Origin: Spirochaetaceae bacterium
Lineage (GTDB): Bacteria > Spirochaetota > Spirochaetia > Treponematales > Treponemataceae
Direction: 5' to 3'
Length of the DNA: 64,000 bases
Assembly: GCA_017936665.1 (NCBI GenBank)
Contig: JAGBFB010000032.1
Coordinates: 1-64,000 of the forward strand
Shown: piece by piece, positions 540 to 25,393 of the stretch
How positions within the stretch are numbered: the stretch's first letter is position 1
Layout of the letters: each line of letters starts with the position of its first letter
Notes under the pieces: model-generated
Told to the model about the DNA's origin: nothing
Database searches by the model: none
Seen by the model: the letters and a program-made list of their open reading frames with translations, nothing else
Position numbers and translations under genes: made by a program

Positions 540-549
540 CCCCCCCCCC
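540..549. repeat. C10 homopolymer (poly-G on the minus strand)
   Basis: Ten consecutive C in an AT-rich intergenic region, about 160 bp upstream of the minus-strand double-glycine-leader gene. Poly-G tracts of this length are known slipped-strand contingency loci in spirochaetes, for example upstream of Treponema pallidum tpr genes. Phase variation here is an inference. Confidence 0.75.
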
Positions 550-4226: not shown

Positions 4227-4874
4227 CTAATTATAATCCTTAAAAAACAATGTCAAATATCCACTATCATTTACAAGTGATTCAAACTCCCATTGTTCAT
4301 AACTAACATGTCTTTCCCCATAATAAGGATCGTTATAATATACTTTTGTAGTTTTATTAGTATTTAAATCTTTTTGATATCCTGTTACAACTACTGCATG
4401 TGGAGGATTTATATTTTTATACCCAAGAACAGAAATTAAAGGTTGTCTATCTATTTGTATTTCAGGAATAATTTGAAACATTGATCCAGAATTACATGAA
4501 AAATCGGAACTCAATTCTGCGAAATCGTCATTAGTAATATTTATATGATAACGCATAAATGCAGAAATAGACTGAGGTGCACCATCATTGGAATATGGAT
4601 AAAACGAAGAACCGTAAGTCATCCAAAAAAAATCACTTATGTACTCTTGAACTTCATAATTTGATCCATCTAAAAAATCCTCATCAGACCAACCAACAAT
4701 ATCAGCAAAAAACTCGGCACACATCAAAGTACAAGCAGGTAAACACCACACTTTTGTTTCTTGATAAATTAATGGAACATCTATTTGGTACGTCTTCTTT
4801 GTTGATATAGCAGAGCTACAAGAGATAGAAAATAAAATGAAAAATAAACATAAAATAATATTAACCCTTTTCAT
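4227..4874 (-). CDS. C39-like (papain-fold) cysteine peptidase lipoprotein
   Basis: About 215 residues when started at MKRVNIILC, which gives a clean signal peptide with lipobox SISC; an ATG seven codons upstream is possible. The catalytic pattern of the Peptidase_C39_2 type is visible: QETKVWCLPAC (oxyanion Gln and nucleophile Cys), then HAVVVTGY (His) and YYNDPYYG (Asp). The family includes exported peptidases and transpeptidases; without an ABC domain it is not the standard double-glycine-leader processor. It heads the operon with the lipoprotein and SGNH hydrolase genes and is divergent from the antiporter gene. No clear ribosome site is visible. Confidence 0.7.
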   Translation of the reverse strand: MKRVNIILCLFFILFSISCSSAISTKKTYQIDVPLIYQETKVWCLPACTLMCAEFFADIVGWSDEDFLDGSNYEVQEYISDFFWMTYGSSFYPYSNDGAPQSISAFMRYHINITNDDFAELSSDFSCNSGSMFQIIPEIQIDRQPLISVLGYKNINPPHAVVVTGYQKDLNTNKTTKVYYNDPYYGERHVSYEQWEFESLVNDSGYLTLFFKDYN

Positions 4875-9378: not shown

Positions 9379-9789
9379 TTAGTATTGGGCTCGTGTTAAT
9401 TTATAAGTTTTACCATAGAAAGTAAAATTTAAAACATCTCCATCAATTTCTGCTATAGCTGTATCCTCAATAACTTTACCATTATCTAAAATTCGAACAT
9501 TTAAATTTGGAATTTTTTCTATCCAATACAATACATTATAAGATTCAGATTCATGATAATCATATTCAATATTTCCCACAGTTCGTGAGAAGTAAAAATC
9601 ATGGTTAGTAAAACTTAAATGTGTTCTAATTGTAACTGGAATTAAAAAGCCTTCAATTTCAATTGTTTGAGTTTCTGTACTTTCCCAGTCTGTCAAATCA
9701 TAGAGGTCAGTACCTCCACAGCCAACAAAGATTAACGACACTGCAAATACCACAAATAAAACTAAAAAATTTCTTAATTTCATTTTCAT
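9379..9789 (-). CDS. Small lipoprotein downstream of a poly-G tract
   Basis: 136 residues. The signal peptide has lipobox FVGC, then the mature start GGTDLYDLTDWEST. A beta-rich body ends in TYKLTRAQY, like the neighbouring small lipoprotein. A ribosome site (AGGA) precedes the ATG. A G9 tract (coding strand) lies 72 bp upstream of the start codon, at nearly the same distance as the one before the lipoprotein gene starting at 20019, which suggests transcriptional phase variation of this two-gene unit (inference). The function is unknown. Confidence 0.6.
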   Translation of the reverse strand: MKMKLRNFLVLFVVFAVSLIFVGCGGTDLYDLTDWESTETQTIEIEGFLIPVTIRTHLSFTNHDFYFSRTVGNIEYDYHESESYNVLYWIEKIPNLNVRILDNGKVIEDTAIAEIDGDVLNFTFYGKTYKLTRAQY

Positions 9790-9860: not shown

Positions 9861-9869
9861 CCCCCCCCC
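9861..9869. repeat. C9 homopolymer (poly-G on the minus strand)
   Basis: Nine consecutive C in AT-rich intergenic DNA, 72 bp upstream of the lipoprotein gene starting at 9789. This position suits changing promoter spacing or a regulator site by slippage. The rest of the 9790-10001 gap contains one perfect 14-bp palindrome, cgtaaaattttacg at 9953-9966. Confidence 0.75.
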
Positions 9870-17685: not shown

Positions 17686-20019
17686 TTATTGTTGTTTTGT
17701 TAGGATTAAAGAACTTAACTCATGAGTTGTATCAAAATCTTCACCTTGATAAGAAATATAAAGAGTACCAGAAGCAGAAACTACACCTTCGCTAAGAAAA
17801 TTTGTATTTTCTGTACCACACTTATACATATTTCCACTGTGTAAAAAATATGTACTTGATATCTCATATTCACCAACAGTTAAAACTAATTGTTCGGTTT
17901 CTTTTGTATCATCAATTATCAATGTAGCACCATCAGATGAAGTCCAAGTTCCATTAAAATCAAAATCTTCAAATTGAGCTTTTACAAAATAAGAAATAAC
18001 CCCACCAAGAGAAGTCGGATCAAATTCGTAAACATCATCTTCTATTTTAGAACAAGGAACTGTTTCACCCGAATAGTCAAGATCAAACCCATCATCTGTT
18101 TTATTCTTTATGCTAATTTCATGATCATTAAGAAGAGCAGTATTAGATTCCCAATCAAAACCACACTCCGTATTTTCATTGTTTATCCATAGTTCTAAAT
18201 TTGCATCAGAGGATTTTGGTAAATATACTGTAGCATCTTCCTCTAGCGAAGAATCATAATATTGAAGTGCAACTCCAACTTTAGAAAAAATTGCTTTTTT
18301 GCCAACAAATTCAGGTCTATCACCAAGAGGATCTAAAGTAATTTGATTTCCTTCTATAGTGAAAGTTCCTAAAGATTTAGTTTCATCAGATTGTCTAAAT
18401 CTATATGACATTGTATTTTTATCAATTGTAAAAGAAAAACTGTCATCGCTATACAAAGAATATTCACCATTTATATCAGGTGTTGTAGTAGTTTTTTTGA
18501 TAAAGATTTCACTTTCACTCAATCCCAGCGATGATAAATCCATAGAGAAAGCTGTATCGTAAAGACCTATTTCCTTATCACTATCATAATATGTCAAAAG
18601 TTCTATTTCAAAAGTTTTTTCTTCGCCATCTAGTTCTACGATTGCCTTTGCAGTATATTCTAAAGGATTAATTATATATGTTCCTTCAAAATCATAATTG
18701 TCATCAAGACAGTCATTAACAAAGGTTCCGTAATTTAATGAACCACCATCAGCTGTTAGAGTAAGAGTTGTTAAAAAATCAGCTTTTTGCCAAGTTGAAG
18801 TACCGCCCGTAAATAATGCTCTTGCAGATTCTACTGCAGGAATATACCAATAATAAACAGGAGCATGTTTATTTCCATAATCGACACCTAAATCAATTAA
18901 GTAATAAATATCACCAGAATATTCATCAGATTCGATTGTATATTTAAACCTTAAAGAACATCTACATTGATTATAATCAGAATATTCTGTGAGATCAGTA
19001 GAAAGATAATTTTTATACCATTCATTATATTCGTCAAAATCAGGTAATTCATAAATGAAGCCTGAATAATTTTTTATTTCTGAATCGTCGAACATATCTG
19101 TAAAGGTATATTCAAAATCTTCAATTTCACCATCTGGTCCAAATAATGAAATGTCAAATTTTAGAGATGTAGTTGCATCAGCATATACAACTAAAGGATT
19201 TTCATCAGAAATTTCATGATTACGAACATCTGTAACTTTAATATCAAAATAATAGTTTAAAGTTTTTACTGTAATTATATTTGATTTTAATCCTTCGTAT
19301 TCATAATAAAGTTCAATTTCTTTATTTACATATTCTTCTGGAAAATCAAAAGTAACTTCTACATGTCCATTAGGATAATAATTTCTAGAAGTATAAATTC
19401 CTGTAACAGTTTTTTCTGTAAAATTTTCGTCACCTTTTAAACGAGTAAATTGTTTAATTTCAGTATCTTTAGTAAATTTCACAGAATTTTTATTATGAGA
19501 AATCAAATCAAAAACATATGAATATTCATTATTTTTTACTTTTCCAGGAAAGTCGTATATTTGCATTTCATTTTGTTCTACTAAAATTAAAGGCTCTAAA
19601 TTACTAACAATTACTTTTATTTTTTCTGATGTGTAATACTCACCTACAGTTGCCCAATACTCAAATTCTTTAGTTTCACCAGCATTTACCATATCAAAAC
19701 CAATATCAACTGTATAACTAATATCACTACCATTAGCAATATCCCAACTTTTTACAACACCTGCTGATTTTTCATGTATTTCATATTTTACATCAGCATC
19801 GTTACTCCATGTTAAAGAACCAAAACGCAATGAAACAGTATAACTATCTCCCTCGTGAGCATAAACAATACCATCAGTGTTCTCATGACTATCATCATAA
19901 CATTCAACCCAAACATGAAAATCATCTCCACTAAATTCGAATGGGTCTTCTCCACAACCTACAAATACAAACATTGCTAATAAAACAAGCAATGTTCCCA
20001 AAATTTTTCCTAGTTTCAT
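17686..20019 (-). CDS. Large lipoprotein with C-terminal lipocalin-like modules, behind a poly-G tract
   Basis: 777 residues from the ATG at 20019 (AGGTAG just upstream); the open frame extends 11 codons further without a signal sequence. Lipobox FVGC is near residue 23. Residues about 30-360 are beta-rich and look like tandem Ig-like domains (repeated patterns such as VYAHEGDSYTVSLRFG and VVYADATTSLKFDISLFG). The C-terminal third contains lipocalin-like modules (DINGEYSLYSDD; FNGTWTSSDGATL) and the local closing pattern EGVVSASGTLYISY ... SLILTK. It is probably a surface protein. A G9 tract lies 64 bp upstream and a divergent XRE regulator gene starts 243 bp away. Confidence 0.75.
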   Translation of the reverse strand: MKLGKILGTLLVLLAMFVFVGCGEDPFEFSGDDFHVWVECYDDSHENTDGIVYAHEGDSYTVSLRFGSLTWSNDADVKYEIHEKSAGVVKSWDIANGSDISYTVDIGFDMVNAGETKEFEYWATVGEYYTSEKIKVIVSNLEPLILVEQNEMQIYDFPGKVKNNEYSYVFDLISHNKNSVKFTKDTEIKQFTRLKGDENFTEKTVTGIYTSRNYYPNGHVEVTFDFPEEYVNKEIELYYEYEGLKSNIITVKTLNYYFDIKVTDVRNHEISDENPLVVYADATTSLKFDISLFGPDGEIEDFEYTFTDMFDDSEIKNYSGFIYELPDFDEYNEWYKNYLSTDLTEYSDYNQCRCSLRFKYTIESDEYSGDIYYLIDLGVDYGNKHAPVYYWYIPAVESARALFTGGTSTWQKADFLTTLTLTADGGSLNYGTFVNDCLDDNYDFEGTYIINPLEYTAKAIVELDGEEKTFEIELLTYYDSDKEIGLYDTAFSMDLSSLGLSESEIFIKKTTTTPDINGEYSLYSDDSFSFTIDKNTMSYRFRQSDETKSLGTFTIEGNQITLDPLGDRPEFVGKKAIFSKVGVALQYYDSSLEEDATVYLPKSSDANLELWINNENTECGFDWESNTALLNDHEISIKNKTDDGFDLDYSGETVPCSKIEDDVYEFDPTSLGGVISYFVKAQFEDFDFNGTWTSSDGATLIIDDTKETEQLVLTVGEYEISSTYFLHSGNMYKCGTENTNFLSEGVVSASGTLYISYQGEDFDTTHELSSLILTKQQ

Positions 20020-20082: not shown

Positions 20083-20091
20083 CCCCCCCCC
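20083..20091. repeat. C9 homopolymer (poly-G on the minus strand)
   Basis: Nine consecutive C 64 bp upstream of the lipoprotein start at 20019, placed like the tract at 9861-9869 (72 bp upstream). Probably a slippage-prone promoter or leader element. Confidence 0.75.
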
Positions 20092-23740: not shown

Positions 23741-23778
23741 GTTATCACTAAATATCAGATAAATTTTCAAAAAGAAAT

Positions 23779-23821
23779 GCCACGCGGATTTGTTCACAGC
23801 TAACGCTGTTCACTGATTTTG
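23779..23821. repeat. Dispersed 43-bp repeat, copy 1
   Basis: gccacgcggatttgttcac followed by agctaacgctgttcactgattttg; copy 2 is at 24365-24408. The two share the first six bases and an uninterrupted 21-base 3' part (taacgctgttcactgattttg). Both are preceded by an A-rich run. Confidence 0.6.
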
Positions 23822-24273: not shown

Positions 24274-24364
24274 AATTACACCTCATTTATATTAAAATAC
24301 ACTATAATTATACTAATTCTTACTATAAAAACAAGTATTTTTGATAATTTCACACAAAAAAGAT

Positions 24365-24408
24365 GCCACGTGGCTTTATTCATAGGATAACGCTGTTCAC
24401 TGATTTTG
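24365..24408. repeat. Dispersed 44-bp repeat, copy 2
   Basis: gccacgtggctttattcat followed by aggataacgctgttcactgattttg; pairs with copy 1 at 23779-23821. The 24274-24736 gap contains this repeat, the 34-bp array, a palindrome and a HipB-type palindrome, but no gene. Confidence 0.6.
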
Positions 24409-24526: not shown

Positions 24527-24547
24527 CTTAAAAATATTGTTGTATAG

Positions 24548-24568
24548 ATTCCGAATCAAGTTCGGAAT
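24548..24568. repeat. Extragenic palindrome
   Basis: Perfect arms attccgaa/ttcggaat around tcaag, followed by gacggggg. This is the form of an extragenic palindromic repeat; a diverged pair appears at 422-491. Confidence 0.55.
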
Positions 24569-24582
24569 GACGGGGGTTTGGA

Positions 24583-24600: not shown

Positions 24601-24736
24601 TACAGGTGGTCAAGGGACATTTCAGTTAAACCCTTGACTCATCTTTGTTTATGTTCTCCAAGTATTGTAGAACCTAAATTAAAACAGAAGGCACTTAAAA
24701 TATAAACATTCCAAGTACCTTTTGTTAACGAAAAAT

Positions 24737-25213
24737 TTAAATCTTCAAAATTTCTTTCTTTTTTGCATCAAAATCTTCTTGTGTAATTACGCCTTCATCA
24801 AGAAGTTTTTTGTATCTTTTTAATACAACAACAGAATCAAATTCTGCTTGGGAAGCAGCTTGAACTTGAGCTATGGCTTCTGATGAAACAACTGGAGTAC
24901 CATCTGTAGGTCCCCCCCCATTGCGGCAGCAGCAGTAGCAGCTTCTTTTTCTCTTGCTTTCATCGCTTTTTCACCAGCTTTTGTAAGTTGATCATGTTCC
25001 ACAACTTTTCCTGGATTATCTAATTCAAAACATTGTCTTGAACAATACTTTCCTACAAATAATAACGGAAAAATTCTATATTGATAATCACTCCCCCCCC
25101 CACCTACCTTTTTTATCATACATACCACATTGAGAGCTGAGAGTTTTACACATTTTACATCTTTTTTGCCTATACATATCGCAAAAAGGAATTTTTTTAT
25201 TTAATATACCCAT
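24737..25213 (-). CDS. SHOCT-domain protein interrupted by two poly-G tracts (phase-variable)
   Basis: Starts at ATG 25213 (AAGGAG upstream) and encodes a Cys-rich N-terminus (C11, C19, C22, C29; MYRQKRCKMCKTLSSQCG) resembling a small zinc-binding module. At the G9 tract (25093-25101) the frame runs into TGA after 41 residues. One G fewer would join the frame WGGSDYQYRIFPLLFVGKYC, whose next part contains an Ala/Lys-rich helix. At the second tract (G8, 24912-24919) this middle frame again leaves register; one G more would join the C-terminal SHOCT domain LKRYKKLLDEGVITQEDF. The total length is a multiple of three, so the outer parts share a frame. Three products are possible: 41, 113 or about 158 residues. 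As written the gene is off. Homopolymer sequencing error is the alternative. The function of SHOCT proteins is unknown; the domain is often oligomerising. Confidence 0.75.
24912..24919. repeat. Intragenic C8 tract (poly-G, coding strand)
   Basis: Eight C within the SHOCT gene. Nine (or six) would restore the frame from the middle segment into the SHOCT domain. Confidence 0.75.
25093..25101. repeat. Intragenic C9 tract (poly-G, coding strand)
   Basis: Nine C within the same gene. Eight would restore the frame from the Cys-rich N-terminus into the middle segment. Confidence 0.75.
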
Positions 25214-25393
25214 AATTTACTCCTTATTTTTTAGGTATTATATTAATAAGACAAAAGTCTTATCATTTAAGTTCATCATATACCTAAATTTTCTTGCTGT
25301 AGTGAGTATTTACTACTCAATTTTTAGTGAGTTATACACATAGGTTTTAATGTGTATTTTTGTCCACTTTTATTGACTGGTATAAAGTGTTGA

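Follow-up and report, generated by a model that had tools for sequence, protein, structure and literature searches.

A small gene interrupted by two poly-G tracts in an uncultured spirochaete related to the agent of syphilis

Can a small gene that is interrupted by two slippage-prone G runs be a working gene with two switches, or is it simply broken? The locus belongs to an uncultured spirochaete related to the one that causes syphilis, and lies within the 64,000-nucleotide stretch of DNA analysed here as a whole (the window). The original prediction held that three pieces, each out of frame with its neighbour, belong to one real gene, and that slippage at either tract would change its product.

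Architecture of the interrupted gene

The unit occupies the minus strand from 25213 to 24737. From the ATG to the stop codon it measures 477 nt, a length divisible by three as had been claimed, and its parts are arranged as follows.

25237–25266, minus strand: promoter-like site, ATGATA-18-TATAAT, 10 of 12 matches, free of poly-G (such sites are about as frequent in shuffled sequences)
25220–25225, minus strand: ribosome site AAGGAG, 6 nt before the ATG, from reading the sequence
25088–25213, minus strand: N-terminal reading frame of 41 codons, with the ATG, the Cys-rich motif CX7CX2CX6C and a stop after G9; codon score 0.03
25093–25101, minus strand: first tract, G9 (C9 on the plus strand), with the N-terminal and middle frames out of register
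24920–25092, minus strand: middle segment, 57 codons open; codon score 0.55
24912–24919, minus strand: second tract, G8 (C8 on the plus strand), with the middle and C-terminal frames out of register
24737–24910, minus strand: C-terminal segment, SHOCT domain and stop codon; codon score 0.64
24688–24721, minus strand: terminator-like stem of 15 pairs followed by a T-rich tail (2 found against 0.4 expected)

As sequenced, the gene yields only 41 codons, with a stop just beyond G9. The N- and C-terminal pieces share one frame and the middle piece is displaced by one, such that both tracts must change residue class for the full product to be made. The frames therefore bear out the idea that the pieces are joined only if both tracts change, and the coordinates given for the two tracts and the presence of one ribosome site were also correct. 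The tracts are 181 nt apart and both translate as glycine linkers. Six of the nine possible combinations of frame class lead to an early stop (41 or 53 aa) and another two get past the first tract but end beyond the second (113 or 125 aa), leaving a single combination that encodes the full-length protein of 158 aa; these lengths are corrected for a computation that was run with an 11-base first tract and prints one residue more. At least three product states (41, 113 or about 158 residues) had been proposed; the frame classes give five. The repeats thus lie inside coding sequence with their length setting the frame, which is the arrangement of a translational contingency locus. The promoter-like site is without poly-G, and the gene does not have the layout of a promoter-spacer switch of the tp0126 or porA type.

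Coding character and domains of the product

A codon-use model was built from 42 long reading frames of the window. On its scale, genuine gene segments of comparable length come out at 0.44 ± 0.14 per codon, and off-frame reading at −0.29 ± 0.16. The middle and C-terminal pieces reach 0.55 and 0.64 in exactly the frames predicted, while their other forward frames contain stops and score negatively. The N-terminal piece, at 0.03, is the best of its six frames and is stop-free for 37 codons, but it falls between the gene and off-frame distributions. Weak by codon use, it is supported by the start site and the Cys motif and can be called suggestive. The expectation that all three pieces would have coding content is therefore strongly upheld for two of them and less so for the first.

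The SHOCT domain (PF09851) matches the C-terminal 26 residues (Pfam E = 7.5e-8; 32.3 bits against a curated cut-off of 27; residues 130–155 of 157). The middle segment contains YCSRQC and an Ala/Lys/Glu-rich stretch which is probably helical. Six Cys residues are spread across the N-terminal and middle parts, as CX7CX2CX6C and then CX3C, and this pattern suggests a metal site that would be split by the first tract; we infer such a site from the sequence, and neither protein families nor solved structures nor structure prediction gave support for it. The same combination of a Cys-rich N-terminus and a C-terminal SHOCT domain is found in zinc-ribbon plus SHOCT proteins (PMC3581485; PF12773, PF09851), but the N-terminal part of this product matches no zinc-ribbon family at E <= 1 and cannot be classed as a zinc ribbon or treble clef. 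The N-terminal/middle part has no match in NCBIfam or the PDB, and AlphaFold, run without relatives, gave no usable fold for the product (mean pLDDT 43). A signal peptide or lipobox was sought by eye in the N-terminal sequence and none was seen; the product is not exported, unlike those of most other tract-bearing genes of the genome.

Poly-G tracts across the genome

The window has a GC content of 28% and contains 2, 1, 0 and 5 G/C runs of length 5, 6, 7 and at least 8, respectively. An order-2 Markov model predicts 0.006 runs of at least 8, making the five observed some 800 times commoner than expected, and the tracts of the gene are longer than chance allows for this genome. There are 35 G8–G10 tracts in the 2.58 Mb of the genome, with G7 almost absent. 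Across the 206 kb examined, runs of length 3 to 7 number 772, 185, 13, 1 and 0, and those of length 8, 9 and 10 number 12, 20 and 3; most of this set was chosen for its tracts, which enriches the upper lengths but does not cause the gap at G6–G7. Placing 35 tracts by chance would give 0.08 pairs within 181 nt. Two tracts this close together are unusual, not extreme.

We examined the stretches around all 35 tracts. Nineteen of them sit between the −35 and −10 elements of promoters that are nearly identical and lie upstream of lipoprotein genes, each with TA(C/G)TTGAC, the G tract and then a TAnnnT hexamer, at a spacing of 16 in 14 cases, 15 in three and 17 in two. A twentieth copy (L143) carries G7. 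By eye, the gene that follows has a signal peptide and lipobox in all 20 cases; an automatic pattern, strictly set, accepts 14 of the 19 promoter-tract genes as opposed to 13 of 54 other genes in the window (p = 2e-4). These roughly 20 poly-G-spacer promoters probably constitute a phase-variable lipoprotein regulon. About eight further tracts are located within lipoprotein-like genes or a short way upstream of them. Those inside reading frames are in frame in three stretches (L069, L075 and L083) and out of frame in three others (L062, twice, L068 and L073); in total, six of nine such junctions are out of frame, as an equilibrium among three frames predicts. In L076, tandem duplicated lipoprotein genes (tracts at 2498 and 3025) have promoters that differ over some 90 nt in nothing but the tract, G8 in one and G9 in the other. 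This pair reads as a footprint of slippage, and is the nearest thing to direct evidence of it here.

Copies of the promoter with the form TA(C/G)TTGAC-G(7-10)-...-TAnnnT are found at 9861–9869 of the window and in L063–L066, L071, L072, L074, L076 and L077, with more in L081–L085, L087–L089 and L143. The tracts of the window outside the two-tract gene are listed below.

9861–9869, minus strand: G9 inside the spacer of a TACTTGACG-...-TAAACT promoter with a lipoprotein gene (9379–9789) downstream; a tract of the type seen in the interrupted gene, put to another use
20083–20091, minus strand: G9 some 64 nt upstream of the ATG that starts a lipoprotein gene of 777 codons' product (777 aa; 17686–20019), without a TTGAC box
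540–549, minus strand: G10 between TTGACA and a TAAT-rich element, a promoter read by eye

The gene that follows the G10 at 540–549 encodes a small protein whose start (MKITVKEFVKLDLTSLMQVNGG) resembles a double-glycine leader, as in bacteriocin-type peptides. L062 (G000:C1) holds a giant lipoprotein gene, apparently broken at two poly-G tracts (2576 and 5581) and with a third break near 4655–4676 (GGTGGTGG); it appears to be a second double-tract gene. In L083, a lipoprotein gene is preceded by a promoter-spacer tract (2477), and a coding tract that is in frame (3672) lies early in the following gene on the same strand, a possible case of two-level gating of one operon. Two sister species (G001 and G002) also have poly-G tracts, but the TTGACG-Gn promoter family was not found in either.

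Origin, alternative readings and meaning

We favour, with a probability of about two in three, a real small gene, controlled by two translational contingency tracts and now OFF, whose Cys-rich and probably metal-binding product has a helical middle and a SHOCT C-terminus. Slipped-strand mispairing is an established route of length change in such tracts, and would at replication alter the length of each. The first tract would act as a gate for translation past about residue 40 and the second would then decide whether translation reaches the SHOCT tail, the assembled genome representing an OFF state that makes a 41-residue peptide. We infer that slippage at the two tracts is live and that the truncated products are without function. 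The genome-wide set of 35 G8–G10 tracts, most of them in lipoprotein promoters and including the L076 pair, provides independent support for this contingency reading. What was originally predicted, two contingency tracts in a real gene, is thus the best-supported explanation and agrees with its genomic context, with the amendments that the possible products number five and that the N-terminal piece is weak.

An N-terminal/middle orthologue was absent from 274 genomes of the family, 394 of the order and 393 of the phylum (about 1,000). GTDB contigs, viral contigs and phages likewise gave no match to this part, and only the SHOCT tail was matched, in otherwise unrelated proteins. A seemingly full-length candidate (L043) was rejected as an unrelated SHOCT protein, and weak matches to the N-terminal piece in three genomes (G219, G246 and G464) were put down to chance. 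The 3′ end of the gene with its terminator (24653–24833 of the window) does recur, at 180 of 181 bases (99.4%), at positions 1–181 of L015, the end of contig JAGARN010000007.1 from Spirochaetaceae bacterium RGIG8708 (G270; water deer colon), which belongs to another genus of the same family. That contig, which holds the sole other copy, ends inside the gene, short of the tracts, and the likeness is lost just after an inverted repeat, GGTTCTACAATACTTGGAGAAC. In the 3′ arm of the terminator one G is an A in the G270 copy, which gives a perfect pair there. A near-identical 3′ end in another genus implies that the segment was transferred recently or is a mobile one common to both.

The neighbours are accessory in kind: a VapC-type PIN protein with an HTH, HipA, HipB, RelB and two AAA_14/DUF4143 ATPases. 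The RelB antitoxin gene is flanked by two 66-bp repeat copies (23758–23821 and 24343–24408) that agree at 82%, and there is no third in the genome; the idea that these are integron cassettes was rejected, there being only two copies and no attC-like end boxes by eye. After RelB, just a short remnant of a YafQ/RelE-like toxin was seen by eye. A 26-bp repeat around CCGAATCAAGTTCGGAATGACGGGG (24546–24571) is dispersed in the genome and occurs again in L062, L064, L065, L076 and L077.

On account of the missing orthologue, the main rival is a decaying orphan, recently acquired in an accessory region, inactivated by slippage and now free of selection. The near-identical 3′ end in a different genus, with the recent transfer to which it points, is in keeping with this, as is a neighbouring RelB that by eye has no intact toxin partner. 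However, the two tracts are the sole lesions, the middle and C-terminal pieces retain gene-like codon use without stops, and drift is not expected to produce poly-G of this length in DNA of 28% GC. We regard decay as unlikely, although it deserves to be taken seriously. More doubtful is a variant of the favoured reading in which the truncated forms (41, 53, 113 and 125 residues) are distinct products, for example a Cys finger plus helix without SHOCT, giving combinatorial control of a cytosolic regulator. If true, this would place such control beside a lipoprotein surface under some 20 poly-G promoter switches.

The tracts might also be expression dampers as opposed to heritable switches, with RNA polymerase slippage or ribosomal frameshifting constitutively recoding a fixed 9+8 arrangement. 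RNA polymerase is known to slip on other long homopolymer runs and, given that the N- and C-terminal pieces share an overall frame, paired slips would yield the full product. This would take two events in opposite directions, though, and recoding is irrelevant at promoters, where most other tracts of the genome sit, so that we think this improbable. Least credible is an error of assembly or consensus hiding an intact gene: the assembly is a draft of 43 contigs and G runs are error-prone, but either tract is shorter than a read, an excess of G8–G10 with a gap at G7 is no pattern of error, and several of the tracts inside reading frames (L069, L075 and L083) are in frame.

The closest precedent for a real gene with two contingency tracts is the Helicobacter pylori Type IIG methyltransferase JHP1272 / HP1353-HP1354, in which two homopolymeric repeats combine to change enzyme specificity (PMC3936762). 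There too, each of two repeats in one gene is able to shift the frame and the combinations give different products, but that gene encodes a large restriction-modification enzyme of known activity, as opposed to a 158-aa orphan read from one genome. In Treponema pallidum, poly-G tracts of about 7–11 at tprE/G/J, tprL and tp0126 differ in length within isolates, and tract length affects the activity of the tp0126 and tprL promoters (PMC7864442); of 17 poly-G targets, 76% showed length variation. The tp0126 tract lies between −35 and −10, a placement shared by 19 loci of the present genome. The characterised T. pallidum loci are transcriptional and concern outer-membrane proteins, whereas the gene described here is translational and lacks an export signal. 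The late tract, which would change or remove the C-terminal part, resembles C-terminal phase variation in Helicobacter canadensis (PMC2823697), where tracts are single; here, the upstream tract gates the downstream one.

Two tracts in one gene are already known from JHP1272, and what is unusual here is the target, a small, non-exported Cys-rich/SHOCT protein. If both tracts switch, the full protein would arise in one of nine combinations, making it rare and two mutations away from the present state; serial gating of this kind by two tracts is little documented. In our view, the lipoprotein promoter family is a more consequential observation than the two-tract gene. An extended set of poly-G switches in a T. 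pallidum relative that is itself uncharacterised means that whether surface switching is ancestral or has evolved repeatedly can be tested in relatives that do not cause syphilis.
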